Part shown: one piece after another, positions 7,447 to 23,527 of the stretch | Position numbering within the stretch: position 1 is the first letter of the stretch | Layout of the letters: each line of letters starts with the position of its first letter | IMG/VR virus record: IMGVR_UViG_3300037319_000107 | Location: 1 to 25,896 of that record | Direction: 5' to 3' (one strand) | Source of the DNA: a virus | Length of the DNA: 25,896 bases | The notes under the pieces: model-generated | The model's database searches: none | Seen by the model: only the letters and a program-made list of their open reading frames with translations | Told to the model about the DNA's origin: nothing | Position numbers and translations under genes: made by a program

Positions 7447-8022
7447 TTACTTATCCTTCTTATGGTAGAAATGATGGAAACCTATTGTAGCATAAACATG
7501 TTTAGTTTTTGTCCAAGCATTAGAAACTTTTTTTGTTGCGTACCACATGACTGTTTCAGGTAGCATTGTTTCAAACATTCCATTGCTCATTTTGTGAGCT
7601 AACTTATAGATATAATCATATGATTGTTTATCATAATAAGTTAACGTTTGACTTATTTTATTTATATCCGGTTTGTTTTCAAGAGTGTAACTAAACTGCT
7701 TACGTTGGTTAACTACTTTGCAATAGGTACTAGGATACCTTTCGCTATTCTTGCGGTTCTCTATAACAGAAGCAACCGCAAGAATGCCTAATTTACTCTC
7801 ACTTCGAGCTTCGTAGTATAAAGCATTCATCAAACAATTCTTTTGTTTGTTTACCTTAAGGTTAATAATCTTTTCTGTTTTAACATGTTCCAGCTTAACA
7901 TATTCTGGTTCACTGTTCTTAACAACATTTCTCTTTTTAAAACTATTATCTTTGTATGTGTTTAAAAGAGAAAGAGAGATTATTACTGAAGCAACATAAA
8001 ATAAGAATTGTTTGGTACTCAT
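7447..8022 (-). CDS. SleB-like cell-wall hydrolase with N-terminal anchor
   Basis: 191 residues. Residues 62-191 match the cell-wall hydrolase SleB family: NCLMNALYYEARSESKLG, where E71 would be the catalytic acid, then AVASVIENRKNSERYPSTYC, QRKQFSYT and a terminal IGFHHFY. The family cleaves peptidoglycan glycan strands as a lytic transglycosylase or amidase-like enzyme. Residues 5-21 are hydrophobic with no evident cleavage site, so a signal-anchor (SAR-type) lysin is possible. GGAG lies 10 bases upstream and the start overlaps the upstream stop (TAATG). It sits among early genes, away from any holin. Confidence 0.8.
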   Translation of the reverse strand: MSTKQFLFYVASVIISLSLLNTYKDNSFKKRNVVKNSEPEYVKLEHVKTEKIINLKVNKQKNCLMNALYYEARSESKLGILAVASVIENRKNSERYPSTYCKVVNQRKQFSYTLENKPDINKISQTLTYYDKQSYDYIYKLAHKMSNGMFETMLPETVMWYATKKVSNAWTKTKHVYATIGFHHFYHKKDK

Positions 8023-8177
8023 TACATTAATTCTCCGCGTTTTTGTTGACGCTGTTTTGAGAAATCTTTCTTCTTATCTTTTGGCTTATCTTGTTTGTAC
8101 TTATCTTCATCGTAATCTTTTTTCTGAGAATTGCGTTTGATACTCTTGTTGTTCTGTAAGCAAGAAGTTTGTGACAT
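8022..8177 (-). CDS. Lysine-rich small protein (51 aa)
   Basis: MSQTSCLQNNKSIKRNSQKK opens the protein; about half of all residues are charged (KDYDEDKYKQDKPKDKKKDF), so it is probably disordered. SD is weak (AGG at -8), but its stop overlaps the lysin start as TAATG, which supports a real gene. It might bind nucleic acid; this is only from charge. Confidence 0.6.
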   Translation of the reverse strand: MSQTSCLQNNKSIKRNSQKKDYDEDKYKQDKPKDKKKDFSKQRQQKRGELM

Positions 8178-8203
8178 TTTATTTACCTGACTTTAGTTAA
8201 TAA

Positions 8204-8404
8204 TCAATTTGTTTGCTGTGCAAGATCACATCTTTGTTGGGATTGCTCTGCATTTTGCTGCATTTCTACAGCATCATCATATTGTACACCTTTTACGATG
8301 AATTCTACATCTTCTTTAAAATAATCTACTATGACAACATCATATAGACGATTCACAGTAGTGTTACGAACGATCAAGATTTCTTTTTCGTTTTCAATGA
8401 GCAT
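8204..8404 (-). CDS. Small hypothetical protein (66 aa)
   Basis: ATG 8404 with a weak AGAAAGA site. Strand-rich first half (EKEILIVRNTTVNRLYDVVI, then DVEFIVKGVQYDD) and a glutamine-rich helical end (MQQNAEQSQQRCDLAQQTN). Not recognised. A promoter candidate lies immediately upstream (8418-8447). Confidence 0.65.
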   Translation of the reverse strand: MLIENEKEILIVRNTTVNRLYDVVIVDYFKEDVEFIVKGVQYDDAVEMQQNAEQSQQRCDLAQQTN

Positions 8405-8417
8405 AATATTCTTTCTG

Positions 8418-8447
8418 ATTATATTTAAAATTTACAAACACAAGCAA
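8418..8447 (-). promoter_or_regulatory. Possible sigma-70 promoter, minus strand
   Basis: TTGCTT (8447-8442), 18 bases, TATAAT (8423-8418) on the minus strand. The -10 is consensus and the -35 has four of six matches. It lies in the 44-base gap before the gene at 8204-8404. Confidence 0.45.
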
Positions 8448-8448
8448 A

Positions 8449-8610
8449 TTAGTCTGCGTTTCTTTCACTGCTGTACTCAACGTAGCTGTCAAAGGACAGT
8501 AGCATTTGGCGACTGTCATCTTCTGTTACGTACTCTGCATCACTCTCAGCGAACCTAGATTCTACATCAATTTTTGATGTTGTTGAAGAATATTTTTTGT
8601 TTTTTTTCAT
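8449..8610 (-). CDS. Small acidic protein (53 aa)
   Basis: MKKNKKYSSTTSKIDVESRF, then an acidic middle (AESDAEYVTEDDSRQMLL) and FDSYVEYSSERNAD. GGAG stands 6 bases before the ATG, inside the last codons of the upstream gene, whose stop is 2 bases away. Not recognised. Probably translated with that gene. Confidence 0.65.
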   Translation of the reverse strand: MKKNKKYSSTTSKIDVESRFAESDAEYVTEDDSRQMLLSFDSYVEYSSERNAD

Positions 8611-8612
8611 GT

Positions 8613-9086
8613 TTAACTCCATAGGGATTGAAAATATTTACCAAACAACTGACAACCTTTTTGTATCCTCTGATCATAAGCATCTAGACCGATTCTATCA
8701 CAAATTACAGCATTTATTTGTTCAGTAAAAGAACTATTTTCATCAACTTTACTATGATCGAAAAATATATCCATAGTTTTTCTTTCATTTGCGATCTCTC
8801 TCATAGCAAAGATCATTTCATTAAGTGCATAGTCCCACCGCAAATGATAGTTTTCATCGATATCGTAATCATTTTTTGATTCTGGTGCAGATGTAGACCG
8901 TAAGTTTTCAGGAACATCAATGTCATCAATGCTTCCAGAACCTTTCTTATTTTGCCTAAGCTTTTCAAGCAAAGGTGCGGCAATAATAGCAAGAACGTAA
9001 TCGGCATTATCAATATCACTGTCGTGTATTTCTACTCTTGTTGACAGTTTGTCATCTTCTGCAAAACCACCAATGTTTACTATCAT
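8613..9086 (-). CDS. Conserved phage protein, unknown function (157 aa)
   Basis: The order PLLEKLRQNKKGS, DIDVPENLRS and then ENYHLRWDYALNEMIFAMRE is a pattern I recall in uncharacterised early proteins of T4-like and T5-like phages (an HxRWDxxLxEMIxA core). AGAAGG lies about 10 bases upstream of the ATG. Mostly helical, no catalytic motif, no export signal. The stop nearly meets the next gene, so the unit 9543-8449 is compact. Confidence 0.7.
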   Translation of the reverse strand: MIVNIGGFAEDDKLSTRVEIHDSDIDNADYVLAIIAAPLLEKLRQNKKGSGSIDDIDVPENLRSTSAPESKNDYDIDENYHLRWDYALNEMIFAMREIANERKTMDIFFDHSKVDENSSFTEQINAVICDRIGLDAYDQRIQKGCQLFGKYFQSLWS

Positions 9087-9087
9087 G

Positions 9088-9543
9088 TTATTTGTTACCT
9101 TCTCTTTTTTGGATTACACTTTTGTTAATAGGAAATATTGAGTAGTTTTCTCTAATCACATCTATCTTACCATCTCTATGAGCGCTCTCAAGTTTAACTA
9201 AAAGAAACAAATGCTCCAACATTGATGAAAGTCCTGCGGTTGTCATTTCAACTTCACCTTCACCCAATGCCAAAATAAAACACAGCAAACTTAAATTTTC
9301 AAGGTCTTGTCTTGAATCATCAGAAAACACCTGAAACTGTTCGTAATCAATAGTGTTTATATAGTTTAAACTGCTCTGTATTTCGTAAACTTCAACATCG
9401 TCCAGTTTTTCAAAATAATCACCAGCAGGTAAGAACTGATGTTGTCTAACTTCAAAAGCTGCTTTTAGAACCCAATTGGGTAGTTTTTTATTTTCTAGTA
9501 CTCTACCTAGATTTAGAAATTTAATATCTTGTATCAAGATCAT
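9088..9543 (-). CDS. Hypothetical protein (151 aa)
   Basis: ATG 9543 overlaps the stop of the upstream small gene as ATGA. The middle contains a long helical region (DLENLSLLCFILALGEGEVE, TTAGLSSMLEHLFLLVKLES). I do not recognise a domain. It sits one base from the conserved phage protein downstream and may act with it. Confidence 0.7.
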   Translation of the reverse strand: MILIQDIKFLNLGRVLENKKLPNWVLKAAFEVRQHQFLPAGDYFEKLDDVEVYEIQSSLNYINTIDYEQFQVFSDDSRQDLENLSLLCFILALGEGEVEMTTAGLSSMLEHLFLLVKLESAHRDGKIDVIRENYSIFPINKSVIQKREGNK

Positions 9544-9689
9544 TCTTCCTCATTGTTATTGACATCAATATTTTCTGCACTGAAATCTGTGTTGTCCAGT
9601 AACCTTTGACTTTCATCAGACCTGACCCCGTTGCTCACAGGGAAAGGCCATTTGCTAGGTATCGTCTGTGGATTCTGGTTCTGGGTCAT
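9540..9689 (-). CDS. Small protein starting inside the HU-like gene (49 aa)
   Basis: ATG 9689 lies out of frame inside the 3' end of the HU-like gene (35-base overlap) and has AAAGGA 8 bases upstream. The frame reads MTQNQNPQTIPSKWPFPVSN and ends NNNEEE, with the stop overlapping the next start as ATGA. The SD plus two-sided coupling make it a credible gene. Proline- and asparagine-rich, probably disordered; function unknown. Confidence 0.65.
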   Translation of the reverse strand: MTQNQNPQTIPSKWPFPVSNGVRSDESQRLLDNTDFSAENIDVNNNEEE

Positions 9690-9990
9690 TGTAGTTTTCC
9701 TTTAAGTAGTTTTGTATTCTGGTGTCTGATACAACTGATAGTCTATATGCATCATACCATGACAAACCACCTTTTCCATCGGGAACACCACGAATTCTCA
9801 TCTTTTTTACTCGTAAAATACCAATACCACTGATTCTAACAGGTACATTTTCAGCTAATAGAACTTGAATGTTGCCCACAAAGTGATCTAGTACATCTTC
9901 TACCTCGTACTGATGGTAACCAGATGACTTTGCAACCATAGCGATCAGTTGTCTGTATTTTTTGGACTTTCGTTTTTCTTTGAAACCCAT
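9655..9990 (-). CDS. HU/IHF-like DNA-binding protein
   Basis: 111 residues. KYRQLIAMVAKSSGYHQYEV, EDVLDHFVGNIQVLLAEN and VPVRISGIGILRVKKMRIRG follow the HU/IHF order: two helices for dimerisation, the GIG-type turn and the start of the DNA-binding arm. The arm tip is short and lacks the usual NP motif (RIRGVPDGKGG). A C-terminal acidic tail (DPEPESTDDT) is added. It probably bends or compacts phage DNA as a dimer. The start overlaps the upstream gene by 46 bases. Confidence 0.75.
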   Translation of the reverse strand: MGFKEKRKSKKYRQLIAMVAKSSGYHQYEVEDVLDHFVGNIQVLLAENVPVRISGIGILRVKKMRIRGVPDGKGGLSWYDAYRLSVVSDTRIQNYLKENYNDPEPESTDDT

Positions 9991-10205
9991 AAGTTTACTT
10001 TCATAAAATTAGGAAACATAACGTTGATGTTACCTTTGTTGTGCATTTGCGATGTTCGAGCAACAATCATATCATTGATTTCTGTCATGTACTCAAAAAC
10101 TTTGTGATGATTTGCAAAAGTAAAAACATCACCTTCTTTCAGTTTGTTTAATTGCAAAGGAACAGTCAACGACTCCCAATCGGCAAGGTCATGTTCATTC
10201 AACAT
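9945..10205 (-). CDS. Small hypothetical protein (86 aa)
   Basis: AAAGGTTAAA stands before ATG 10205, one base after the ThyX stop. The segment LNKLKEGDVFTFANHHKVFE suggests a small strand-rich fold; NVMFPNFMKVNLWVSKK is followed by a polar tail overlapping the HU-like gene. Not recognised. Confidence 0.65.
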   Translation of the reverse strand: MLNEHDLADWESLTVPLQLNKLKEGDVFTFANHHKVFEYMTEINDMIVARTSQMHNKGNINVMFPNFMKVNLWVSKKNESPKNTDN

Positions 10206-10206
10206 T

Positions 10207-11118
10207 TTAACCTTTGCTTACGTTGTTAGCGATCAACTGACGATACTGAACCCAACCCATGAAGTTACCAGACCAAGGTTTACCACTCATGTCAATATGA
10301 GTAAGACCTTCAAAGTCCACTTCTTCTTCAATAGCATCAGTAACCATCTTCATTGTCATAGGGGAAGCAATATGTTCAACAGGACTTGCGTGAACAGGTA
10401 CAGAGTTGATCAGCCGATCAAAAACAAAAGATGCTTTCTCTAAACTCACATCATTCTTACGATAAGAAATCTGAGCGCAACAACTTGCACTAATCATTTT
10501 TGATTCTTCTGCTGTAATATATTTCTCATTTTCATCAAGGTAGTGCAAAATCTTGCTACCACGATCACGATGTACAGTTACATACGGAACGTGCCACTCA
10601 CCTTCATACAAATTGAAGGCTTCACTATTCCTGTAACTATCAAACATTTTGGTTGCTAGTTCTTTAATCTCAGGTTGAGCATCTGCATGATCGCGTAACC
10701 AAAACCAATTGTTAAACTCACTAGAAGTTAACACAGTCTTGATCAATTGAAAAGGTTCTAAGATACGATTGACAATCTGTTTGTGCAATCCCATGTCACG
10801 CATTACATTAGCAAAAGAAATAGCACTGTCACGAGCAGCTAACCAAAGTTGTTTAGCACCTTCTACATTTTCAATTTCTTCGTTAGCTTGCATTCCTGCT
10901 CGATTCTTCCCCCAATGAACAGGCATTGCAGGATTGGTCTTAAGTAATTCTATAACCTTGTCAATGGGGATGGCTCGTGAGCTTGCTGCATTTCGACTAA
11001 ACACACGGTGTGTCATTAGTTCACCATGAATAAACCTTGGGTACACCAACTCAAAAGTAGTCAACCTTGATTCCATATCCTTGTTGTAACTATCTTTAAT
11101 AATCTTAACTTCAATCAT
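10207..11118 (-). CDS. thyX: Flavin-dependent thymidylate synthase ThyX
   Basis: 303 residues, AAAGGAAAATTAA before the ATG. ThyX makes dTMP from dUMP with methylene-tetrahydrofolate, FAD and NADPH. The signature normally written RHRxxSxNExSxR appears as THRVFSRNAASSRA (residues 36-49). The first Arg and the NE glutamate differ, a variant I recall from other phages and some bacteria. Further blocks are AMPVHWGKNRAGMQ, EPFQLIKTVLTSSEFNNWF, RDHADAQPEI and EESKMISASCCAQISYR. Together with dCMP deaminase upstream, which yields dUMP, it forms a dTTP branch. Confidence 0.92.
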   Translation of the reverse strand: MIEVKIIKDSYNKDMESRLTTFELVYPRFIHGELMTHRVFSRNAASSRAIPIDKVIELLKTNPAMPVHWGKNRAGMQANEEIENVEGAKQLWLAARDSAISFANVMRDMGLHKQIVNRILEPFQLIKTVLTSSEFNNWFWLRDHADAQPEIKELATKMFDSYRNSEAFNLYEGEWHVPYVTVHRDRGSKILHYLDENEKYITAEESKMISASCCAQISYRKNDVSLEKASFVFDRLINSVPVHASPVEHIASPMTMKMVTDAIEEEVDFEGLTHIDMSGKPWSGNFMGWVQYRQLIANNVSKG

Positions 11119-11129
11119 TTAATTTTCCT

Positions 11130-11237
11130 TTATGTTATCTTTTGATTTGCTATCTTTTGACTCATTCTTAGTCTTTTCTTAAGTAATGACTTTTCATTTG
11201 ATTGAAAGTATTTGATAATGCAAAATACAATTTTCAT
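11130..11237 (-). CDS. Possible 35-aa basic peptide
   Basis: ATG 11237 overlaps the upstream stop as ATGA. The frame runs to 11 bases before the ThyX start. It reads MKIVFCIIKYFQSNEKSLLK and then a strongly basic end (KRLRMSQKIANQKIT). The 5' part is hydrophobic. The ATGA overlap and the filling of an otherwise empty gap support it; length and lack of a strong SD leave doubt. Confidence 0.45.
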   Translation of the reverse strand: MKIVFCIIKYFQSNEKSLLKKRLRMSQKIANQKIT

Positions 11238-11443
11238 TTTATCCACCAGTTAATTAAGCCAAACAAATAAATAGCACCAGATGCTGCTTCTACAAGAATT
11301 AAAGCTCTGTCTTTGTATTTAAAACCTACGATACACCAAAGTATACCACCGATAGCACCAAATATTAGATTCAGAGGAAAAATATTTAAACTAGTCAGCA
11401 TCATACCTATCATGTAAAAGAATGTACCTGACCACCTAATCAT
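11234..11443 (-). CDS. Small membrane protein (69 aa)
   Basis: Two or three membrane segments: WSGTFFYMIGMMLTSLNIF, NLIFGAIGGILWCIVGF and LVEAASGAIYLFGLINWW, separated by the KYKDRA loop. It resembles an uncharacterised phage membrane protein type with a LTSLNI-P-N pattern. It overlaps the deaminase stop as ATGA. A role at the inner membrane is likely, but which is unknown. Confidence 0.75.
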   Translation of the reverse strand: MIRWSGTFFYMIGMMLTSLNIFPLNLIFGAIGGILWCIVGFKYKDRALILVEAASGAIYLFGLINWWIK

Positions 11444-11886
11444 GGATTGCTATACTTCTGTATAATAATATTCGATTCCTTGAGTAGTTTTATTCCTGAA
11501 TCATCTCTGTAATTTTCTAAATATACTACTCTTTTGATTCCTGCTTGTACCATCATAGCAGAACAATGCAAACAGGGTGAAAGCGTAATATACATTGTTG
11601 CGTCAATACAACTCACACCTTCACGAGCAGCTTTAAGTATAGCGTTGTTTTCTGCGTGAATAACTTCTTTTTTTGTAACCATCATTGGTTTGTTTGGAAA
11701 AGGTTGTACCTTCTCTTCTTCGCAAGCATTAGAACGGCCTGTAGCGGTTCCATTGAACCCACTTAGGGTAACACCTTGCTTAGTAACTAAGATAGCGCCC
11801 ACCTTCGCTCTAGTGGCTTTAGATAGAAAACTGTGCAGTACAGCAGTGTTCATGTAAGTCTCATCAAGTTCTTTTTGATTTGCCAT
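11440..11886 (-). CDS. dCMP deaminase
   Basis: 148 residues of the cytidine/deoxycytidylate deaminase fold. H77-A-E79 is the zinc ligand plus catalytic glutamate, and PCLHC (C105, C108) gives the other ligands. KVGAILVTKQGVTLSGFNGT is the substrate-side strand pair. The enzyme converts dCMP to dUMP in the cytoplasm, feeding ThyX two genes downstream. Length and motif order fit the T4 Cd / ComEB group. A riboside deaminase is less likely because of the HAENNAI and ALLMxxGI-type context (SAMMVQAGIKRVVY). Confidence 0.9.
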   Translation of the reverse strand: MANQKELDETYMNTAVLHSFLSKATRAKVGAILVTKQGVTLSGFNGTATGRSNACEEEKVQPFPNKPMMVTKKEVIHAENNAILKAAREGVSCIDATMYITLSPCLHCSAMMVQAGIKRVVYLENYRDDSGIKLLKESNIIIQKYSNP

Positions 11887-11889
11887 AAT

Positions 11890-12360
11890 TTATTTGCTTC
11901 TTTGTTTCTTAAGCTTATGCTGGATGTTGGACAAACTAGAGTGATCTTTCTTAAGCTTGCGGTGAAGAGTGCGCCAGTAGTTCATTTCAATGAAAGACAG
12001 TTTAGAATTAGATTCTGTATCATCACGATCACTCTGAGTCCACAAGAAATCAATCTTAGTTTTCAGCTTCTTAATGTAATCTTGATCTTGTTGAAGAACC
12101 AAACTTAAACCAGTGGTCAGGCACTGAAGCTCCTCTTGTGTAAGTCCATCAGGAGGCACAACCTTAACAGGAGTCTTCTTCAGCAGAACAGGTTCTTGCA
12201 ATGGTTTGCCCTGCATTGCTCTTTCAGCTTTCTGCCAGACTATCTCAGCAAGACAAATCTCAGTGTCTTCTAACCCAATATGGTTGCACATATGGTAGAA
12301 TTCTTTTTTAAGCAGCATCGGTTTTCCTTGCGTTGGTTGTTGAAGCACGTAGTCTAACAT
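11890..12360 (-). CDS. Hypothetical helical protein (156 aa)
   Basis: First gene of the left arm next to the hub. I start at ATG 12360 (MLDYVLQQPTQGKPMLLKKE); an in-frame GTG at 12384 also exists, and neither has a good SD. The middle (PDGLTQEELQCLTTGLSLVL) and the basic C-terminal part (MNYWRTLHRKLKKDHSSLSN, then KLKKQRSK) suggest a long helical, perhaps coiled-coil, nucleic-acid-binding protein. Not recognised. Confidence 0.65.
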   Translation of the reverse strand: MLDYVLQQPTQGKPMLLKKEFYHMCNHIGLEDTEICLAEIVWQKAERAMQGKPLQEPVLLKKTPVKVVPPDGLTQEELQCLTTGLSLVLQQDQDYIKKLKTKIDFLWTQSDRDDTESNSKLSFIEMNYWRTLHRKLKKDHSSLSNIQHKLKKQRSK

Positions 12361-12411
12361 GTTTTTCTGAGGAACGCAACACACTGCGTGAAAAAAGATT
12401 CAAACAAAGCG

Positions 12412-12440
12412 TTGACAAGACCGATTGGTTGTGCTACAGT
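12412..12440 (+). promoter_or_regulatory. Hub sigma-70 promoter, plus strand
   Basis: TTGACA (12412-12417), exactly 17 bases, TACAGT (12435-12440). Transcription should start near 12447. It is the first plus-strand promoter of the window and would read through the structured RNA and repeat array into the right-arm operon. Confidence 0.8.
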
Positions 12441-12447
12441 CCAACTC

Positions 12448-12558
12448 ATGGGTATGAAGAACGGTAACTACTTCTGGTCTGATCAATTGACCGATAATCC
12501 CAACCGAACTATGTGGTTAACACCATCTTGTCTAGGTAAAAGGGTGTATACTTGGTAG
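12448..12558 (+). CDS. Possible leaderless 36-aa leader peptide
   Basis: The open frame starts MGMKNGNYFWSDQLTDNPNR and ends KRVYTW, 36 residues with three Trp. The predicted transcript start falls on or next to its ATG, so any mRNA would be leaderless; no SD is present. Its TAG stop overlaps the 5' strand of the stem described for the hub RNA. This could be a leader peptide or chance. Confidence 0.3.
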   Translation: MGMKNGNYFWSDQLTDNPNRTMWLTPSCLGKRVYTW

Positions 12559-12656
12559 AGCGAAAGCTCCCTGTGTGTGCATTGAATGACAAGCGAAACC
12601 TCACGAAAAGAGATCGTAGCTACGCCACAACGAGGTAAACTCAGGTTTACGCTCTA
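12556..12656 (+). ncRNA. Candidate structured RNA in the hub
   Basis: TAGAGCG (12556-12562) is a perfect complement of CGCTCTA (12650-12656) and would close a domain of about 100 bases. Inside, GAGC-GAAA-GCTC (12558-12569) is a GNRA tetraloop hairpin competing with the closing stem. ACCTC (12598-12602) can pair with GAGGT (12632-12636), and GTAAAC-TCAG-GTTTAC (12635-12650) forms another hairpin. CGTAGCTACG (12615-12624) is a dyad. The region is far less AT-rich than the sequence just downstream and has no long frame. The mutually exclusive pairings suggest a switch or a regulatory RNA; no known family recognised. Confidence 0.5.
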
Positions 12657-12692
12657 AAAGGCTGTGCTATGTGTCCTACGAAAAGTTTATCA

Positions 12693-12768
12693 TTAAGTTA
12701 TACCTTAAGTATATATCTTAAGTTATACTTTAATGTTATTCTTAAGCTTATACTTAGGTAAAGTATAA
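12693..12768. repeat. 12-13-base AT-rich repeat array (origin candidate)
   Basis: Six degenerate units begin at 12693, 12705, 12718, 12730, 12742 and 12754: TTAAGTTATACC, TTAAGTATATATC, TTAAGTTATACT, TTAATGTTATTC, TTAAGCTTATAC and TTAGGTAAAGTATAA. The period is close to one helical turn, and CTTAAG palindromes recur. Almost pure AT content next to the divergence point and just upstream of the replication genes fits an iteron-type origin or an operator array. Replication use is inference. The 438-base hub between 12361 and 12798 holds this array, the promoter and the RNA, but no long gene. Confidence 0.65.
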
Positions 12769-12798
12769 AAAGAAAAGAATTAAGAAAAGGATTGAATT

Positions 12799-13014
12799 AT
12801 GGATAAAGTAAAAGCTGTGGTAGAGTATTTTGGTGATCCTGTTATTGTTGATTTTAATGATGACCCAAACTTTAAGGTTGCTTATTTAGACTCTATAAGA
12901 GGTCATCCAAAGTTGGGTGATAGGAATAATGTTTGTACATCACGCATTAGAACTATACATTTTGATGATACAATCGAGACTGATAATACAATCTACAAGA
13001 GGGCCAAAAGCTGA
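12799..13014 (+). CDS. Small hypothetical protein (71 aa)
   Basis: AAAAGGA precedes the ATG at 8 bases. The sequence begins MDKVKAVVEYFGDPVIVDFN and continues with acidic and strand-like stretches (RTIHFDDTIETDNTIYKRAK). I do not recognise it. First right-arm gene, with stop and next start overlapping by one base, so it is co-translated with the ligase. Confidence 0.75.
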   Translation: MDKVKAVVEYFGDPVIVDFNDDPNFKVAYLDSIRGHPKLGDRNNVCTSRIRTIHFDDTIETDNTIYKRAKS

Positions 13015-13631
13015 TGACACGAACAATTGATTTTCCTCGTGAACTACCAAAGACTAACCAACCAGAACTAGAGAATTGGTTCATGGATTCTGATATGTAC
13101 AAAAAAGATACATGGACTGTCACAGAAAAACTAAATGGTTTGTCTTGTACTTTTTATCTTAATGAAGACGGTGAGTTTTACGCATGCTCACAGAACAGGT
13201 GCTTAAAAGACGACAATAAAAATTCTTTTTGGGCGCTTGCTCGCAAGTTCAAAGTAGAAGATATAATGCGTAGGAACAGTATGAAAGGTATGGCAATACT
13301 AGGTGAAATGATTGGTGCAAATGTTCAAGGTAATCAGTACTGTGTTAAACTTGACTTTTACGTGTACAATATGTACAATGTTTGTACTGAAAAGTATCTG
13401 TTGCCTGTACAACTCAATGCTGCGTGTAAAAGACTAAATCTGAAGCACGTTCCTTTTTTGAGCGAAAATACAACACTTGATGAAAAAACAGCTCAAGATG
13501 TGTTAAACTTTTCGGAAGGTAAATCAATGATCAATGGTTCCGATAGAGAAGGAGTTGTGTTCTTCAGCAATAGTAAAGACAACGTGAGTTTCAAAGTTGT
13601 TAGTAATTCATGGTTGATCAAAAAAGAATAG
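13014..13631 (+). CDS. RNA-ligase-like nucleotidyltransferase
   Basis: 205 residues with the ligase/capping nucleotidyltransferase motifs: I as EKLNG (K39 the adenylated lysine), the GEMIGANVQGNQY block and VKLDFYVYNMYNV around motif III, IV as REGVVFF and V as VSFKVVS. EKxNG and GxxxQxNxY favour the RNA ligase 2 side over DNA ligase, whose motif I is KxDG. Only the adenylyltransferase domain is present, without an OB-fold or other C-terminal domain. It may reseal host-cleaved tRNAs or other nicked RNA; a tRNA gene lies in the same arm. Substrate is not shown by sequence. Confidence 0.78.
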   Translation: MTRTIDFPRELPKTNQPELENWFMDSDMYKKDTWTVTEKLNGLSCTFYLNEDGEFYACSQNRCLKDDNKNSFWALARKFKVEDIMRRNSMKGMAILGEMIGANVQGNQYCVKLDFYVYNMYNVCTEKYLLPVQLNAACKRLNLKHVPFLSENTTLDEKTAQDVLNFSEGKSMINGSDREGVVFFSNSKDNVSFKVVSNSWLIKKE

Positions 13632-13641
13632 GAGTAATTTG

Positions 13642-15372
13642 GTGAATTTTATTAAGCATGTGAGTTGTGAAAAATGCGGGTCATCTGATGCAAAAGCAGT
13701 TTATGAAGGTGGTTCATCTCATTGTTTTGCTTGTGAGTTTACAATACCATCACAATACTTTAAAGAACAGAATCCCAGTAAGAACAAACGAGTTCGTAAT
13801 AACCCAAAGAAGGAAGAAGAGAAAATGGAAATTAAAACAAACAGCAAACCAGCTATGACCTCTGAAGAGAATGCATCGATCAAATCAGAGACTGGTGTGC
13901 ATGGTAAGAACTTTCGTTTTTTGAGGGACAGCACAACAAAACCTTTTGGTATTCGCTATGCATATGACTACGATACAGAAGACGTAATTGAGCAATATTA
14001 CCCAGTGACACAAGAAGGTCAGATCGTTGGTTATAAAATTCGTGAAGTACCAAAGAACTTCTTCTCAAAAGGTAGAACGGGTGCTGATTGCGAGTTGTTT
14101 ATGCAATTCAAATTTAATCGTGGTGGTAAGTATGTAGTGATCACTGAAGGTGAGCTTGATGCTTTGTCTGCTTATCAAATGATCTCTGACTACAACAAAA
14201 GTAAGAATAGTGACTTTGAAACAGCGGTTGTATCACCAACTACAGGTGCCCAGTCACATAAACAGATTGCTGCACAATATAAGTTTCTGGATTCGTTCGA
14301 ACAGATTATTGTAGCGTATGACAATGACAAAGCAGGTAAAGATGCCACTGAGAAACTTTTGACAGTATTACCTAAAGGTAAGGTCAAGATAATGCACATG
14401 CGATTCAAAGATGCAAACGAATATCTTGAGAAAGGTGAAGACAAAGCTTTCGTCAGTGATTTCTATAAGGCTAAGACTCATGTACCTGTAGGTGTTGTTG
14501 GTAGCGGTGAAATTTCTGATTCAATGCGTCAAGAATTTATGACACCTAAGATTCCTTTGCCTCCTTTCATGCACAAGCTTCAGGATATGATGTCAGGTGG
14601 TATTCCACTTGGACGCATTGTCAATTTAGCAAGTGCCAGTGGTACAGGTAAGAGTACCATTGTGGATGAGATTGTGTACTACATGTTGTTCAATTCACCG
14701 CACAAAGTTGGTATTGTTACTCTTGAAAGTACAACAGGTCAATACGGTAATAAGTTACTTTCCCGTCACATTGGTTTGAAGCTTGAACTAAAGACGAATG
14801 AACAAGCTTTGGAAATATTGGCTTCAGATAATGTTAAGAAGAAAGAAAAGGAATTGTTCTGGACAGACTCAGATGAACATCGTTTTTATCTGATTGATGA
14901 CCGTGATGGTGGAGTAGACAATGTGAAAGATGCTATTGAAAACCTAGTTATTAGCTGTGGTTGTAAAGTTATTGTTCTTGACCCAACTCATGATGTTATT
15001 GGAACATTACCTAACGAAGAGCAAGAATCTTTCTATAGTTGGCAGAAAGGTATGGTAAAATCCCATAACTGCACCTTCTACAATGTTATGCATACTCGCA
15101 AAACAGCTAATGGTCAGAAATCAGGAAGTACTGGTGCTGACTTGAGTGAAGAAGATATCCAAGGTTCTTCAAGTGCTTACAAAAGTGCAGCTTGTAACCT
15201 AATGTTCTCTCGCAACAAAGAATCCGAAGATTCAATCGAACGTAATACAACTACTATGAAAGCAACAAAGATTCGTTGGTCAGGAAGAACAGGTGTAGCT
15301 GGTAAGTACTATTATGACAACGACACTCATACCATGTACGATCTGGATGACTACTTGAATAACAATCATTAA
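13642..15372 (+). CDS. T7 gp4-like primase-helicase
   Basis: Start is the GTG at 13642, since GGAG lies 7 bases upstream; the TTG one codon earlier would be only 4 bases away. 576 residues: a zinc-binding domain (C9, C12, C28, C31), a charged linker, a TOPRIM primase core (VVITEGELDALSA near 165 and VAYDND near 225), then a RecA-type hexameric helicase with Walker A SASGTGKST near 333 and a VIVLDPTHDV Walker B. It would unwind DNA and make primers at the fork, with the polymerase downstream and the SSB. C-terminus is acidic (YDLDDYLNNNH), as in T7 gp4, where the tail contacts the polymerase. Confidence 0.93.
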   Translation: MNFIKHVSCEKCGSSDAKAVYEGGSSHCFACEFTIPSQYFKEQNPSKNKRVRNNPKKEEEKMEIKTNSKPAMTSEENASIKSETGVHGKNFRFLRDSTTKPFGIRYAYDYDTEDVIEQYYPVTQEGQIVGYKIREVPKNFFSKGRTGADCELFMQFKFNRGGKYVVITEGELDALSAYQMISDYNKSKNSDFETAVVSPTTGAQSHKQIAAQYKFLDSFEQIIVAYDNDKAGKDATEKLLTVLPKGKVKIMHMRFKDANEYLEKGEDKAFVSDFYKAKTHVPVGVVGSGEISDSMRQEFMTPKIPLPPFMHKLQDMMSGGIPLGRIVNLASASGTGKSTIVDEIVYYMLFNSPHKVGIVTLESTTGQYGNKLLSRHIGLKLELKTNEQALEILASDNVKKKEKELFWTDSDEHRFYLIDDRDGGVDNVKDAIENLVISCGCKVIVLDPTHDVIGTLPNEEQESFYSWQKGMVKSHNCTFYNVMHTRKTANGQKSGSTGADLSEEDIQGSSSAYKSAACNLMFSRNKESEDSIERNTTTMKATKIRWSGRTGVAGKYYYDNDTHTMYDLDDYLNNNH

Positions 15373-15383
15373 TCTTGACGTAG

Positions 15384-15416
15384 ACCCAGAGTTGTGATAG
15401 ACTCTGGGTTTTCTTT
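15384..15416 (+). terminator. Hairpin with T-run before the polymerase gene
   Basis: ACCCAGAGT (15384-15392) pairs with ACTCTGGGT (15401-15409), followed by TTTCTTT. It lies 12 bases after the primase-helicase stop and just before the SD of the polymerase. No downstream promoter is visible. A weak TTGACG-17-TAGACT pair (15375-15403) overlaps the stem itself. Partial termination or attenuation is possible. Confidence 0.7.
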
Positions 15417-15431
15417 ATTGGAGAACTATAA

Positions 15432-17618
15432 ATGGATTTGACGAAAGACTGGATTTATGACCTTGAGACGTACAAGTCAGCGTTTACGTTTGCTGTTGTT
15501 CGTGCTGATGGCAAATTCCCTCGTGTATTTGAGGTGTCTAATCGTTTAAACGAGCTTGCACGTATCTATGCTTGCGTAGACCACATTGAATCCACCAAGG
15601 GACGCATGGTGGGTTTTAACAACGTAGGTTTTGACTACCCTATCCTGCATGAAGTGTTAGTTGGTCGCAGTGCTTGGAATCTAAAATCAGGTAAGCAAAT
15701 TGCTTCTGCTGTGCATAAGCTTGCACAAAAACAGATCGACTCCTTCAAGGACAACGGTTTCGGTAACAGCATCAAAAGTGCTGATGAGATAGTAAAGCAA
15801 GTTGACCTATACAGAATCCATCACTTCAACAACAAAGCAAAGGCTACTGGTTTGAAGATGCTTGAATTCAACATGCGTCTTGAAAACATTGAAGACCTAC
15901 CTTATGCTGTAGATGCTGAACTTGATGGTGAACAGATCGACAATCTTAAAACGTACAATATGCACGATGTGAATTGCACATTGGCTTTCTATTTGAAGTC
16001 TTTGCCACAGATAGAATTTAGAGATAACCTGAGCATAAAGCTTGGGCGTGACTTTACTAATGCTGATGACACCAAAATTGGTGCAGAATACTTTCAAATG
16101 AAGCTTGAGGAATCAGGTGTAAATCTGCATCATTACAAAGATGGTAAGAAGGTAATAAAACAGACTAAACGCGATAAGATCGTGATCAAAGATTGTTTAT
16201 TCGACTACTATACTTTTGATCGTCCTGAGTTTCAAGCTGTTTACGATTGGTTTTCTAATCAAGTAATCACTGAGACTAAAGGTGTATTTTCAGATGTCGA
16301 AGAACATAACCTTGGTGAAGTTGCCAAGTATGCTAACCTTACTGTCAAGCGCAAGAAGTTAAAAGGTGCACCCATTGATGAAGAGATTGTCAACTTCAAG
16401 AAAGAACATCCTTTGGGTTGGGTAGAAATAGAAGAACTAAAAGCAACTGAGTATCTATTTGATTCTAATGGTGACCATGTAACAGAACATGTAATGGATG
16501 AAGATGGTTGTCCTGATCTATCCAAGAAACCAAAGAAGGTTCGAGTACCTAAGAAGTCACATTGGGGTTGCTACAACATTGCTGAGACTCTGAACGTCAT
16601 GGTTGATGGTTACCGTATCGACTTTGGTGTAGGAGGTGTACACGCTTCATTGTCAGAGAAGGTTGCTAGTGCTGGTAAAACTTACATGATTCGTGATGCT
16701 GACGTTAAGTCAATGTATCCCAACGTTGCTATCGCAAATAAGATTTATCCTGAACACCTAGGCGAACAGTTCTGTGTTATTTATCAAGACATGTACGAAC
16801 AACGCAAGTCATATGGTAAGAACACTGCTGAGAATGCAATGCTTAAACTTGCACTTAACGGTACTTACGGTAAGAGCAATGACAAGTATTCTGTTTTCTA
16901 TGACCCTAAGTTTACAATGTCAATCACTATCAACGGTCAGTTGTCTTTGCTAATGCTTGCTGATAGACTACTACGTATTGAGAACCTAAAGTTTATTCAG
17001 TTCAATACAGATGGTCTTACTGTAGCAATGCCTAGAGATGCTGAAGATCAATACAATGATATTTGCACTCAGTGGCAAAAAGATGTAGGTTTGGAGTTAG
17101 AGTTTGTTGACTACAGTAAGATGTACATCAGGGACGTAAACAATTACTCTGCTGTGTACACAAACGGCGACACCAAGCGCAAAGGTGCTTATCAGTACGA
17201 AGGTTTAGAGTGGCACAAAAACCAAGGTGGTCTGGTTATTCCAATGGCTGTTGAAGCAGCTATGGTACACGGTACAGACGTTACTGAGTTTATAAAAGAT
17301 CACCTTGATAAAGGTAATTTATTTGACTTTATGTTGCGTACAAAAGTACCTCGCAGCTCTAAACTTGTGTTAGAATTCGAAGATGGGCGTGTAGAGAATC
17401 AACAGAACATTTGCAGGTACTACCCTTGTAAGACAGGTGGTAAGCTTGTCAAGTTGATGCCAGCACTGCCAGACAACGAAGATCAAAGCGCAAGAAGACT
17501 AGGTATTGATACTTCTTGGCACGTAAAAACTTGTAACAACATAGCTGATTTCGGTTATGATGTGGACTTGGATTATTATGTAAGTGAAGCTGAAAAGCTT
17601 GTTATCAGAAAGATTTAA
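15432..17618 (+). CDS. Family B DNA polymerase with 3'-5' exonuclease
   Basis: 728 residues, GGAG 8 bases before ATG. Exonuclease motifs are intact: Exo I D10-L-E12, Exo II N64 to D68 (NNVGFDYP), Exo III Y175 to D179 (YNMHD). Polymerase motif A is DVKSMYPN with D424, motif B is KLALNGTYGK (residues 472-481) and motif C is FNTDG with D527. Canonical motif C is DTD; here the first Asp is Asn 525 while the second is kept. A long insert (about 280-385) separates the domains. It replicates the phage genome with the gp4-like primase-helicase. Protein priming is not indicated, since a primase is present. Confidence 0.92.
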   Translation: MDLTKDWIYDLETYKSAFTFAVVRADGKFPRVFEVSNRLNELARIYACVDHIESTKGRMVGFNNVGFDYPILHEVLVGRSAWNLKSGKQIASAVHKLAQKQIDSFKDNGFGNSIKSADEIVKQVDLYRIHHFNNKAKATGLKMLEFNMRLENIEDLPYAVDAELDGEQIDNLKTYNMHDVNCTLAFYLKSLPQIEFRDNLSIKLGRDFTNADDTKIGAEYFQMKLEESGVNLHHYKDGKKVIKQTKRDKIVIKDCLFDYYTFDRPEFQAVYDWFSNQVITETKGVFSDVEEHNLGEVAKYANLTVKRKKLKGAPIDEEIVNFKKEHPLGWVEIEELKATEYLFDSNGDHVTEHVMDEDGCPDLSKKPKKVRVPKKSHWGCYNIAETLNVMVDGYRIDFGVGGVHASLSEKVASAGKTYMIRDADVKSMYPNVAIANKIYPEHLGEQFCVIYQDMYEQRKSYGKNTAENAMLKLALNGTYGKSNDKYSVFYDPKFTMSITINGQLSLLMLADRLLRIENLKFIQFNTDGLTVAMPRDAEDQYNDICTQWQKDVGLELEFVDYSKMYIRDVNNYSAVYTNGDTKRKGAYQYEGLEWHKNQGGLVIPMAVEAAMVHGTDVTEFIKDHLDKGNLFDFMLRTKVPRSSKLVLEFEDGRVENQQNICRYYPCKTGGKLVKLMPALPDNEDQSARRLGIDTSWHVKTCNNIADFGYDVDLDYYVSEAEKLVIRKI

Positions 17619-17622
17619 AACA

Positions 17623-17796
17623 ATGTACTATTATGTGTATAATAAGCAATATCAGAGCTTGCAAAAGTATGATCAACAGGATAAGTTAATTTCTAGCATG
17701 TCCATGCCTCAGTCTGACCTAAACAAAATAGCTCAGTTGAACATAGAAGAAAATATTTTACAAAGTGTTGAAAGAAAGTTGAAATATGAGGTATAA
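17623..17796 (+). CDS. Small hypothetical protein (57 aa)
   Basis: It starts MYYYVYNKQYQSLQKYDQQD four bases after the polymerase stop, with only a weak AGAAAGA upstream. Tyrosine- and glutamine-rich with an IEENILQSVERKLKYEV helix at the end. Not recognised. Its last codons contain the -10 box of the tRNA promoter. Confidence 0.5.
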   Translation: MYYYVYNKQYQSLQKYDQQDKLISSMSMPQSDLNKIAQLNIEENILQSVERKLKYEV

Positions 17797-17797
17797 T
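17768..17797 (+). promoter_or_regulatory. Sigma-70 promoter for the tRNA unit
   Basis: TTGAAA (17768-17773), 18 bases, TATAAT (17792-17797). The -10 overlaps the stop of the small gene before it. Start expected near 17804, about 77 bases before the tRNA. Confidence 0.7.
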
Positions 17798-17803
17798 CTA
17801 CGT

Positions 17804-17880
17804 TGGAAGTAAGGTAGCGCCTTACAACTCATTACAAGAGATTGTTGTAAAAATAGGATGCAAAGTCCTGTACAAACATC
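17804..17880 (+). ncRNA. Hairpin-rich 5' leader of the tRNA transcript
   Basis: Three consecutive hairpins can form: GTAAGG/CCTTAC over TAGCG, then TTACAAC/GTTGTAA over a 15-base loop, and AGGA/TCCT over TGCAAAG. The order vaguely imitates D, anticodon and T arms, but the acceptor arm and T-loop consensus are missing. It could be a processing leader or a decayed tRNA. Confidence 0.4.
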
Positions 17881-17955
17881 ACGGGATTCGTTCAACGGAT
17901 AGGACATCTCTCTTCTAAAGAGATAATAGTGGTTCGATTCCACTATCCCGTACCA
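17881..17955 (+). tRNA. tRNA-Arg (anticodon UCU)
   Basis: The acceptor arm ACGGGAT (17881-17887) pairs with ATCCCGT (17945-17951). D stem GTTC/GGAC, anticodon stem TCTCT/AGAGA with loop CTTCTAA (anticodon TCT at 17914-17916), T arm AGTGG-TTCGATT-CCACT, then A and an encoded CCA. It reads AGA, a codon common in the right-arm genes and often poorly served by bacterial hosts. All 75 bases fit the canonical cloverleaf. Confidence 0.95.
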
Positions 17956-17994
17956 GTTTGTAGTATGATGATTTCATTTTACTATAAAAATAAA

Positions 17995-18035
17995 GTCAAC
18001 AATTAGTTGACAAGGTATTTGCAATTTGTTATAAT
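17995..18035 (+). promoter_or_regulatory. Consensus sigma-70 promoter with operator-like dyad
   Basis: TTGACA (18007-18012), 17 bases, TATAAT (18030-18035): both boxes and the spacing are perfect consensus. The -35 lies in the right arm of the inverted repeat GTCAAC-AATTA-GTTGAC (17995-18011), a possible repressor site. The transcript has a short leader with a CTGCTT/AAGCAG hairpin (18049-18066) before the SSB gene. Confidence 0.9.
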
Positions 18036-18095
18036 TGCCATTCGGTTACTGCTTCCGTATAAGCAGAGTCTCTTTATTAAAGTCAAAGGAAATTT

Positions 18096-18749
18096 ATGCA
18101 AAAACTAACAGGTATGCTTTTGTACGTACAACTCAACAAGCCAGCTAAAGGCTATGTAAAACCCGGTAGCCCACCAAAAGCTGACGAGTGGAAAGCATCT
18201 GTAGCGATTACAGATGAAGATGTACTAGATGAATATGAAGCATTCACTAAACAGATTGATGCAGCTACTTCCATCAAGAAAGTAAAAGTTGCTGATTTTG
18301 AAAGCATCTATAAAACCGCTGCTCCAGAAGATGCGGATAAAAATGTTTGGGTGATTACTCTGCGTAAATCAACAGAGCTTGGTAAAACTGGAAAACCAGT
18401 ACCTGACTTATACAAACCAAAAGTGTTTGAGAAAGTAGGAACTACTCTTATCGATGTTACAAACAGTAAACTGCCAGCCAATGGTTCTTACGGTTCAATC
18501 AGTATTGATAAGTTTGAGCGCACAAACGGTACAACTTCTTTGTATCTGAAGAATGTATTAGTTACTGAAATGATTGAGTACATAGCTGAAGAAAGTACTT
18601 ATAATGCAGGTGATGAGTTTGGAGATTCAACAGAAAAAGTAGTTACAAAGCAAAAAGTTGAGGAAAAGCCAAAAGCTGAAGTGAAACCAAAAGCTCGTGC
18701 TAAGGTAGTAACTGGTTTTGATGATATTGATGATGATATTCCTTTCTAA
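18096..18749 (+). CDS. Single-stranded DNA binding protein
   Basis: 217 residues, AAAGGAAATTT before the ATG. A strand-rich N-terminal body (TGMLLYVQLNKPAKGYVKPG to YLKNVLVTEMIEYIAEE) precedes a Lys/Ala/Pro linker and the acidic tail TGFDDIDDDIPF. An OB-like core with an acidic tail ending in Pro-Phe is the hallmark of phage SSBs, whose tail recruits partner enzymes. The gene stands behind a consensus promoter, as expected for a protein needed in quantity. It coats single-stranded DNA at the fork. Confidence 0.85.
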   Translation: MQKLTGMLLYVQLNKPAKGYVKPGSPPKADEWKASVAITDEDVLDEYEAFTKQIDAATSIKKVKVADFESIYKTAAPEDADKNVWVITLRKSTELGKTGKPVPDLYKPKVFEKVGTTLIDVTNSKLPANGSYGSISIDKFERTNGTTSLYLKNVLVTEMIEYIAEESTYNAGDEFGDSTEKVVTKQKVEEKPKAEVKPKARAKVVTGFDDIDDDIPF

Positions 18750-18752
18750 ATT

Positions 18753-18971
18753 ATGAAACTCAAAACACCAAATACTTCTGTCAAACCAGTAATACTTGTA
18801 GTAATTTTACTAGTGTTGGTCTTGGTGTTTTGCCCTATGGCAATCATCTGGTCACTCAACACTTTGTTTCCTGTGTTAGCCATTCCATTTGGAATCTATC
18901 AATGGTTAGCAATAATAATTCTAAACTGCACTTGGTTTGCCAGAGCATCTCTCAGTAATAAAAAGGATTAA
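18753..18971 (+). CDS. Small two-segment membrane protein (72 aa)
   Basis: Two hydrophobic helices: VILVVILLVLVLVFCPMAII and a second in AIPFGIYQWLAIIILNCTWF. The middle WSLNTLFP-IPF motif is one I recall from small uncharacterised phage membrane proteins. It starts 3 bases after the SSB stop without its own SD, so translation is probably coupled. Inner-membrane location. Confidence 0.75.
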   Translation: MKLKTPNTSVKPVILVVILLVLVLVFCPMAIIWSLNTLFPVLAIPFGIYQWLAIIILNCTWFARASLSNKKD

Positions 18972-18975
18972 TATA

Positions 18976-19194
18976 ATGAATCAAAAAGACGCAATCTCTA
19001 GTTTAGTAAAACTTTACATTGAAGAAGAATCTCTTTCGGAGCAAGTTAAAGAGATTAAAGATATGGCAAAAGACTCAGGTTTAGACCCCGCTATTCTATC
19101 GGCAGTAGCGAAAGCTATTGTCAAGAACAAGGTGGATGATCTACGAGTTAAATCAGATGAGATTCTAAAAGCTATCGAAGTAAGTCGAAGTTAA
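18976..19194 (+). CDS. Small helical protein, GapR/DsbA-like appearance
   Basis: Start ATG 18976 (MNQKDAISSLVKLYIEEESL) behind AAGGA, preferred over an in-frame start 13 codons earlier. 72 residues, all helical: SEQVKEIKDMAKDSGLDPAI, then VAKAIVKNKVDDL. The layout is like small DNA-binding helical proteins such as GapR (DUF2312) or T4 DsbA, but the match is only by pattern. Followed by a terminator, it closes the SSB unit. Confidence 0.65.
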   Translation: MNQKDAISSLVKLYIEEESLSEQVKEIKDMAKDSGLDPAILSAVAKAIVKNKVDDLRVKSDEILKAIEVSRS

Positions 19195-19200
19195 CATTTA

Positions 19201-19230
19201 CCCCAAGGCTAGTAACCTTGGGGTTTTTCT
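19201..19230 (+). terminator. Intrinsic terminator after the SSB unit
   Basis: CCCCAAGG (19201-19208) pairs perfectly with CCTTGGGG (19216-19223), loop CTAGTAA, then TTTTTC. It stands 15 bases before the SD of the exonuclease gene, for which I see no promoter of its own. Confidence 0.85.
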
Positions 19231-19244
19231 TTATAAGGAGAATT

Positions 19245-20231
19245 ATGAGTAAAAAATTACTTATTGTAGATGGAGACTTAGTAGCATTTCAACAAGCCGC
19301 TGGTATTGAGAAAAGAACTATCATTGTAAAACATCTGACATCAGAAAGAGAAAAAGAATTTAGCAATAGAACAGAATTGAAAAAGTTTCTATTAGATAAG
19401 AACATTGCTTTTGAACCAAGTAATTACGAGATCACTGATCATCAGCACCCTTTGGATATTTCAATAGCAATATCTAATCTAAATCTGTTTCTTAAGAAAT
19501 TACAAGAATCAACATGGTGTGATGATGTAGAGATTTACTTAGGTGGAGGAAATACCTTTAGACATGACTTACCATTGCCTTCACCTTACAAAGACAAAAG
19601 AGCAAACCTCATAAGACCTGTTCATTTGCTGGCAATTAGAAACTACATGAGAGTCAAGTGGAAAGCTAAAATAGTTGACAATGGTTTAGAAGTTGACGAT
19701 GTAGTTACAATACGTGCCTATGAATGCTTACAGGAAGGTCGTGACGCGGTTTTAGCAAGCGTAGACAAGGACAGCTACCAGTGTCAAGGTATTTCATTGC
19801 TGAACTGGACTAATGAAGACGCTAAGATCGAACTTGTTCCTGATGTTGGTCATTTGTACAAAGATAAGGTGGCTGTAAAAGGTAACGGTCTGATGTTCTT
19901 GGCTTTCCAAGTATTAGGAGGTGATGCCGCTGATACATACAAAGGTTATGATTTGTCAGAAGTAAAATACGGACCTACCAAAGCAATGAGCGCTTTGAAA
20001 GACTGCAAAACTGAACAGGAAATTCTTAAAGTGATGATCAACGAGTTCAAGAGACTGTATCCTGAACCTTTCAACTACACAGACTGTCATGGTGTATTGC
20101 ATGAAGAAGCGGACTGGTTCGATATGATATGTCTTTACTGGGAAGTTGCTTATATGAAGAGAAGTTGGGATGACAATAGCAGCTTTATGCAGTTTTCAAT
20201 GCAGAAAGGAGTCAATCCTTATGACAATTGA
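19245..20231 (+). CDS. 5'-3' exonuclease / flap endonuclease (T7 gp6, T5 FEN type)
   Basis: Start ATG 19245 (MSKKLLIVDGDLVAFQQA) behind AAGGAG; the earlier in-frame start lies in the terminator. 328 residues. Acidic residues of the PIN-like fold are LIVDGD at the N-terminus, then LEVDDVVTIRAYE and LASVDKDSYQ. VLGGDAADTYKGY is the H3TH region. The enzyme removes RNA primers and resects DNA ends in phage replication and recombination. It overlaps the next gene by 11 bases. Confidence 0.88.
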   Translation: MSKKLLIVDGDLVAFQQAAGIEKRTIIVKHLTSEREKEFSNRTELKKFLLDKNIAFEPSNYEITDHQHPLDISIAISNLNLFLKKLQESTWCDDVEIYLGGGNTFRHDLPLPSPYKDKRANLIRPVHLLAIRNYMRVKWKAKIVDNGLEVDDVVTIRAYECLQEGRDAVLASVDKDSYQCQGISLLNWTNEDAKIELVPDVGHLYKDKVAVKGNGLMFLAFQVLGGDAADTYKGYDLSEVKYGPTKAMSALKDCKTEQEILKVMINEFKRLYPEPFNYTDCHGVLHEEADWFDMICLYWEVAYMKRSWDDNSSFMQFSMQKGVNPYDN

Positions 20232-20718
20232 CCTGTATAATACCGCTGAGGTAAAGAAAGTTAGAGAGCAATTAATAAAAGAACAAGATGGTCTATGTGC
20301 AATTACAGGAATACCTACTGCTAGTAATAATTTTGCACTTGACCACAAGCATGACGATGAACAACTTGTTCGTGGTGCTGCACATAAGCAAGCTAACGCT
20401 GCTTTGGGTAAGTTAGAGAATTTGGCGGTAAGATACTTGTATTGGTATCCAGAAGGTTTGTCGCAGTTTCTCATATCTTGTGCAGAATACATTAACAAAG
20501 ACCCTGACAGGCGATGGCGACATCCGGGTTGGTTGAAAAAAGCCAATACTTCTTTTAATAAACTGAAAGAAGGACAAAAAGATGCTGTGTTGCTAGAGTT
20601 AGGTCAGAGTGAGTGCAAAAATGGAGTAGAACGCAAGAAAGCATTCCAAAAAGCACTTTTAACACGTAGATTTTCTCATGACTCAATCCATGAGACGATC
20701 AACAAAGCAAAGGAATAG
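20221..20718 (+). CDS. Endonuclease-VII-like HNH nuclease
   Basis: Start ATG 20221 with AAAGGAG about 9 bases upstream. 165 residues. LDHKHDDEQLVRGAAHKQAN followed by AALGKLEN has the order of T4 endonuclease VII (DHDH, RGxLCxxCN, LG), which cuts branched DNA. The catalytic pair here is D41-H42 with H44 and N59. The two CxxC knuckles of endonuclease VII are not present (only C26 nearby), so the zinc site seems lost, as in some phage homologues. A long helical C-terminus follows. Confidence 0.78.
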   Translation: MTIDLYNTAEVKKVREQLIKEQDGLCAITGIPTASNNFALDHKHDDEQLVRGAAHKQANAALGKLENLAVRYLYWYPEGLSQFLISCAEYINKDPDRRWRHPGWLKKANTSFNKLKEGQKDAVLLELGQSECKNGVERKKAFQKALLTRRFSHDSIHETINKAKE

Positions 20719-20719
20719 T

Positions 20720-20905
20720 ATGAAAATTAAAATATTACAGTGTCAAAACGATCTTTTGTGGTACAATGATTGCATCGGTGAAGAATTTGATGTTACGGTC
20801 ATAACTGATAATTGCTATTGGGTAAAAGTAAAACCTGAAATATTCAATTCTATAAATTGGGTATACAGAGATAACGCAACTATAACAGAAGGAAATATAA
20901 AATGA
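20720..20905 (+). CDS. Small hypothetical protein (61 aa)
   Basis: Start ATG 20720 (MKIKILQCQNDLLWYNDCIG) one base after the previous stop, with AAGGA 6 bases upstream. Strand-rich (EFDVTVITDNCYWVKVKP), three cysteines. Not recognised. Stop overlaps the next start as ATGA, so it is co-translated with the exonuclease. Confidence 0.7.
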   Translation: MKIKILQCQNDLLWYNDCIGEEFDVTVITDNCYWVKVKPEIFNSINWVYRDNATITEGNIK

Positions 20906-21861: not shown

Positions 21862-21878
21862 CTTAGTTGTATTATAAT
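21850..21878 (+). promoter_or_regulatory. Possible promoter at the 3' end of the exonuclease gene
   Basis: TTGCTA (21850-21855), 17 bases, TATAAT (21873-21878). The predicted start (about 21885) is only about 17 bases before the terminator hairpin at 21902, so the transcript would be met by it immediately. Confidence 0.5.
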
Positions 21879-21901
21879 AACCTATAAAATTTAAACACCA
21901 A

Positions 21902-21927
21902 CCCCGGCTAATAACCGGGGATTTTTT
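21902..21927 (+). terminator. Intrinsic terminator
   Basis: CCCCGG (21902-21907) pairs with CCGGGG (21915-21920), loop CTAATAA, then ATTTTTT. It precedes the SD of the next gene by 5 bases and lies downstream of a candidate promoter (21850-21878). Confidence 0.85.
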
Positions 21928-21941
21928 AATTAAAGGACAAC

Positions 21942-23037: not shown

Positions 23038-23054
23038 AACACTCAATACTGATC

Positions 23055-23083: not shown

Positions 23084-23112
23084 AGGAATCCGCTACCTTG
23101 AAAGGTTTGATA

Positions 23113-23523: not shown

Positions 23524-23527
23524 TGAA

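Follow-up and report, generated by a model that had tools for sequence, protein, structure and literature searches.

To our knowledge, few regulatory RNAs have been described in virulent phages, and fewer still have a testable anatomy. The comparison systems for RNAs that act at replication origins are ColE1 RNA II and the transcript-primed origins of T4, and RNAs that form R-loops are rich in G-runs. In phage HK022, the putL and putR RNAs are protein-free antiterminators that suppress termination via the zinc-binding domain of the RNA polymerase β' subunit; put RNA is a folded, cis-acting element of ~70 nt with two stem-loops, located just behind the early promoter that drives a long operon and present in two copies, at PL and PR, with putL beginning near +1 (PMC9378689). 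A different kind of RNA is produced by PAK_P3, whose sRNA1 and sRNA2 are abundant, late RNAs of ~100 nt encoded in intergenic regions, one of them between tRNAs (PMC4933390).

The window analyzed here is the whole of a 25.9-kb freshwater phage record (IMGVR_UViG_3300037319_000107, positions 1-25,896). Its closest named relative is the Limnohabitans phage DC31 (megablast, 80.7% over 29% of positions 8000-25896), filed in its record under Pakpunavirus. DC31, which carries a G-rich leader, has been isolated, and the host genus can be cultured (PMC12195039). A divergent junction from ~12321 to ~12799 separates left-arm genes on the minus strand from right-arm genes on the plus strand, and the following features lie in and beyond it:

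12412-12440, plus strand: sigma70-type promoter, TTGACA-N17-TACAGT with an extended TG (sequence match and homologous junctions)
12447/12448, plus strand: putative transcription start, its position deduced from the −10
12448 to ~12690, plus strand: predicted structured leader RNA element, the type T5 leader cassette, ~240 nt and gap-free in the window and in contigs L042 and L080
12448-12558, plus strand: 36-codon frame MGMKNGNYFWSDQLTDNPNRTMWLTPSCLGKRVYTW, leaderless if translated, TAG at 12556-12558 (open reading frame with its ATG at, or 1 nt past, the putative +1)
12603-12610, plus strand: 8-nt direct repeat, left copy (ACGAAAAG), on the 5' side of a long hairpin
12678-12685, plus strand: right copy of ACGAAAAG, flanking the same hairpin
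12693-12768, plus strand: degenerate, AT-rich repeats resembling CTTAAGTTATA, separating the RNA element from the first gene
12799-13014, plus strand: gene that opens the right-arm operon, 71 aa (gene call)
13014-13631, plus strand: second right-arm gene, RNA ligase (Pfam PF09414, PHROG 968)
13639-15372, plus strand: Toprim/DnaB-type primase/helicase (Pfam/PHROGs search)

The 71-aa protein lacks the Cys-containing N-terminal part (MNRVICDECETVxHCM...) present in several relatives. On the minus strand, a leftward promoter-like site at 12300-12384 stands back to back with the rightward promoter and, by eye, seems conserved in relatives. The sole find of a tRNA/tmRNA search was a tRNA-Arg, away from the leader element; it is followed by a TTGACA-17-TATAAT promoter (18007-18100), whose small hairpin leader is seen again in L003, DC31 and L018.

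The promoter is found where the original prediction placed it. Although a bare match of this kind is at chance level in the region (5 found, 5.9 expected), the aligned junctions of 27 of 31 sequences, counting the window and DC31, contain TTGACA-N16/17-TA(C/G)A(A/G)T. A primase search had collected 76 related IMG/VR loci, and the 31 are the sequences in which both flanking genes could be located. We infer that this promoter serves the right (replication) arm and is early. In the three copies of the element the promoter hexamers are kept while the 17-nt spacer and most of the gap between −10 and +1 differ, and strong conservation begins at CATGGG, the putative +1.

From this point on, the element is the best-conserved DNA common to the window and L042, with 87% identity, whereas the polymerase gene reaches 79% and the primase 70%. 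The window shares it with only two other IMG/VR contigs, L042, which was among the primase-search loci, and L080, which was found by DNA pattern. Beyond L042/L079 and L080, scanning IMG/VR and GTDB genomes for the pattern returned chance matches only (L081-L084, L087, L092), as did a distant blastn search against named phages and plasmids, where the matches were short. An HMM of the three copies, run against the fetched loci, found no element in the G-rich junctions, and 25 related records searched whole contained no second or displaced copy; the element is single-copy in the window and L042 and does not occur at the leftward promoter. The claim that it belongs to no known family held up in Rfam 15, which gave zero matches in the region at the gathering threshold and, in a permissive search to E 10, two meaningless ones at E 7-9. 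It is comparison, rather than the statistics of the window alone, that makes the region special.

A consensus fold of the three copies contains the following helices:

12462-12506, plus strand: helices P1 (12462-65/12503-06) and P1a (12476-79/12489-92), invariant (consensus fold)
12513-12526, plus strand: hairpin P2, with pair 12517/12522 U-A in the window and L042 and C-G in L080
12527-12593, plus strand: helices P3 (12527-32/12588-93) and P4 (12543-51/12575-83), enclosing P5 (consensus fold)
12558-12569, plus strand: hairpin P5, GAGC-GNRA-GYUC, with loop GAAA in the window and GUAA in L042 and L080
12612-12674, plus strand: long 3' hairpin P6-P9, tip GUAAAC-NNNN-GUUUAC, with one-sided pair-preserving changes in P6

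P5 is the GAGC-GAAA-GCTC hairpin that had been recognized in the window at the outset. Across the three copies 96.4% of cells are paired. The change in P2 is the sole two-sided compensatory one, one-sided pair-preserving changes fall in P4, P5 and P6, and at least five cells are broken, so that the covariation proposed as a check in homologues is present in weak form. The consensus fold exceeds column shuffles (z −3.9, 0/300), a generous value because the shuffles were mononucleotide and ignored dinucleotides; within-pair shuffles equal the covariation score in 173 of 500 cases, and the fold with three sequences therefore stays short of proof. Single-sequence folding energies are ordinary (z −0.40 for the window, −1.07 for L042 and −1.64 for L080). 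Taken together, the predictions indicate that the element is probably folded.

These data have led us to put forward, tentatively and as the best explanation, that the element is a cis-acting, structured, untranslated leader RNA of ~240 nt belonging to the early replication operon. It is positioned directly behind the promoter, is conserved above its neighbor genes, carries no protein-level constraint, has a predicted fold shared by all three copies and has been exchanged between lineages. Transcription from the right-arm early promoter would begin with the element itself, at 12447/12448, and take place early in infection. No forward-strand terminator was found in 11500-13500, so the leader would stay joined to the operon mRNA and act in cis. 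In the mechanism considered most likely, the folded nascent RNA would influence how the early genes are expressed, either by attaching to RNA polymerase during elongation, in the manner of HK022 put RNA, or by shielding or processing the 5' terminus of the operon transcript. Weighing against a cis-acting leader are the restriction to three sequences, the broken pairs and the ordinary single-sequence energies. The slot may also need no such structure, since the G-rich leaders of most relatives have no visible similarity to it.

By analogy, HK022 putL appears to be the closest functional counterpart, as the element likewise starts at the putative +1, downstream of what would be the early promoter of a long operon. 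However, put RNA is ~70 nt long with two stem-loops, whereas the element is ~240 nt with several stems and a different predicted fold, and the put RNAs occur at both early promoters, whereas the element is single. Because of these differences in size and copy number, it is not filed here as a put RNA. Binding to RNA polymerase as put does, taken as a step by itself, is unlikely.

The position that the element occupies is filled differently in most relatives, which have behind the promoter a short, G-run-rich leader that leads into AT-rich repeats and then the same opening gene. Four sibling types were distinguished by eye: T1 (CGGGACGAGGGACGGAGGGAC), T2 (CAGGGGTCAGGGGCAGCAG), T3 (CAACGGGGCTGCGGGGGCAGC) and T4 (CAAGGGGGTTACGGGGGTTAGCG). 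The T1-T4 leaders (for example those of DC31, L044, L077 and L018) resemble T5 in having the same promoter upstream and AT-rich repeats and the same gene downstream, but they are short and G-run rich and have no homology to it except the 9-mer GACAAGCGA, which is possibly due to chance. When the sibling leaders were examined for G-quadruplexes, adding G4 terms left the fold unchanged. At least four G-run-rich types are scattered over the primase tree (junctions of L044, DC31 (L002), L077, L018 and others).

In the primase tree of 32 phages, the T5 carriers are spread over three branches: the window groups with L003 (T2) and L006 (T1), L080 (row L095) lies inside a T2/T4 group, and L042 stands alone on a long branch. 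A tree uniting the three carriers is rejected (p-AU 3.2e-6), and the primase tree requires at least three changes for T5 and 11 for all leader types. The separate branches and the rejected one-clade tree identify the leader as an exchanged cassette, and T5 would be one of several interchangeable cassettes between the promoter and the AT-rich repeats in this phage clade. In L042 (3601-4257) and L080 (4693-5298), the left-arm gene is separated from the element by an inserted HNH-like endonuclease gene, named from its sequence, which lies directly upstream of the element. Exchange might have proceeded by homing with co-conversion; the gene is missing from the window.

The G-rich siblings also bear on the main rival of a cis-acting leader, in which the junction is a replication origin, the promoter RNA primes or forms R-loops into the AT-rich repeats, and the leader governs its folding. 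It holds this rank because relatives have AACTKMAGTT repeats in the junction and their leaders are G-rich. Seven AACTKMAGTT sites are found in Curvibacter phage P26059A and three each in L042, L031 and L080; promoter, leader and repeats with 12-nt spacing come together at the divergent junction, upstream of replication genes. In the P26059A record (L091, 56664-56800), several such sites at 12-nt spacing could be candidate origin iterons or operators. As in ColE1 RNA II and R-loop origins, the candidate origin here combines a promoter and AT-rich repeats with a leader that is structured or rich in G; unlike in ColE1, no antisense RNA I is seen and the element has no G-run cluster. The AT-rich repeats of the window occupy the position of the AACTKMAGTT repeats of relatives but match the motif poorly, and the first repeat pattern tried on this array did not set it apart from background. 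The cumulative GC skew changes direction at the junction, which proves nothing about an origin because the turn coincides with the change in gene direction. The papers searched described no such mapped origin, and we regard this reading as unlikely.

Also unlikely, and placed after the origin, is a small RNA cut from the leader and acting in trans on host or phage targets, a version of which the original prediction had allowed as a free regulatory RNA. Very high nucleotide conservation with no selected frame is what such an RNA would show, and cutting could take place at the paired ACGAAAAG motifs. The two copies of this 8-mer change in concert: both read ACGAAAAG in the window, ACAGAAAG in L042 (4590-4597 and 4665-4672) and ACGGAAAG in L080, and none of these sequences recurs on the same strand elsewhere in its own contig; the chance of such concerted change is ~1e-3 by a hand estimate. 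A pair of processing sites or of protein sites would account for it. PAK_P3, with its two abundant sRNAs, offers a precedent for non-coding RNAs in a virulent phage, and DC31 is filed under Pakpunavirus, although the PAK_P3 sRNAs are shorter than the element, late, and located in other intergenic regions (PMC4933390). A small RNA also sits poorly with the lack of a terminator, and a search for antisense targets within each contig yielded none that was convincing (12-nt matches: window 0, L042 0, L080 1).

A gene for a leaderless 36-codon microprotein, with a structured 3' part, is a much less probable account. The ATG at the putative +1, the length and the stop are the same in all three copies, with no indels, and between L042 and L080 the change of TTA TTA to CTT TTG preserves Leu-Leu. 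Those codons sit in hairpin P2, however, where the same changes turn U-A into C-G and alter the loop. Between the window and L042, the first 111 nt differ at five sites, distributed 2/2/1 over codon positions, and the four altered codons are all non-synonymous. This absence of codon periodicity suggests that the RNA rather than the peptide is constrained, and the frame is probably not a selected protein. The peptide has no Pfam or PHROGs match, and tblastn returned chance-level matches only (E 2-8); among these, matches in Aeromonas jumbo phages sharing KNxNYxxxEQLTDxPxR were discarded as being at chance level (E 2-5). The short frame with its TAG over a stem exists as first described, from ATG to stop, but shows no selection at the protein level.

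Less probable again is the reading of the original prediction itself, an attenuator or RNA switch in which two pairings exclude each other next to a translated stop. The inverted repeat TAGAGCG/CGCTCTA is present (12556-12562/12650-12656), in a number no different from shuffles (one 7-mer inverted repeat in the RNA against a mean of 1.17). Extended to 10 nt (12556-65/12647-56), it overlaps both hairpins and pairs at 9/10 in the window, matched in 27% of shuffles, and at 10/10 in L042 and L080, where 1.7% of shuffles are as good. The change in the P5 loop from GAAA to GUAA, along with that of a stem pair from G-C to G-U, preserves the local GNRA hairpin; the loop change fits both pairings, because GUAA stays a GNRA loop and completes the long helix. 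The alternative helix would cost 7.5 (window), 8.2 (L042) and 11.7 (L080) kcal/mol over the minimum fold, predicted energies that favor the local hairpins; nine of its pairs are invariant, one is broken in the window and none covaries. The hallmarks of an attenuator, a leader peptide under selection and an intrinsic terminator as the alternative fold, are missing from the 36-codon frame, with its lack of synonymous bias, and from the forward strand of 11500-13500. Since the energies favor the local hairpins, the helix never covaries and there is no terminator, we reject the attenuator and assign the switch a very low probability. What finds support in the arrangement first described is a conserved promoter with a conserved, structured RNA directly downstream.

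Least credible is that the element is functionless passenger DNA beside a free-standing HNH homing endonuclease: the HNH-like gene neighbors it in L042 and L080, and co-conversion of flanks would explain its spread, but the window has no such gene there and ~240 nt have stayed gap-free and better conserved than the neighboring genes.

The cis-acting leader thus remains our preferred, if tentative, reading. A promoter followed by a leader is ordinary; the unusual part is an RNA element, undescribed until now and known from three copies, that stands in for G-rich leaders at a site where leaders are swapped. A bolder and rather improbable extension is that the slot is a swap site for unrelated RNA leaders doing the same job differently, as an RNA-only modifier of RNA polymerase or as an origin primer RNA, and that T5 would be a new autonomous RNA class exchanged like the allele of a specificity system. 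What is new is the RNA element, while its kind, the phage leader RNA, is already known. Across ~30 related phages, at least five types of leader occupy a single promoter slot, and leaders could therefore be swapped behind a fixed promoter to probe the role of early leader RNA.
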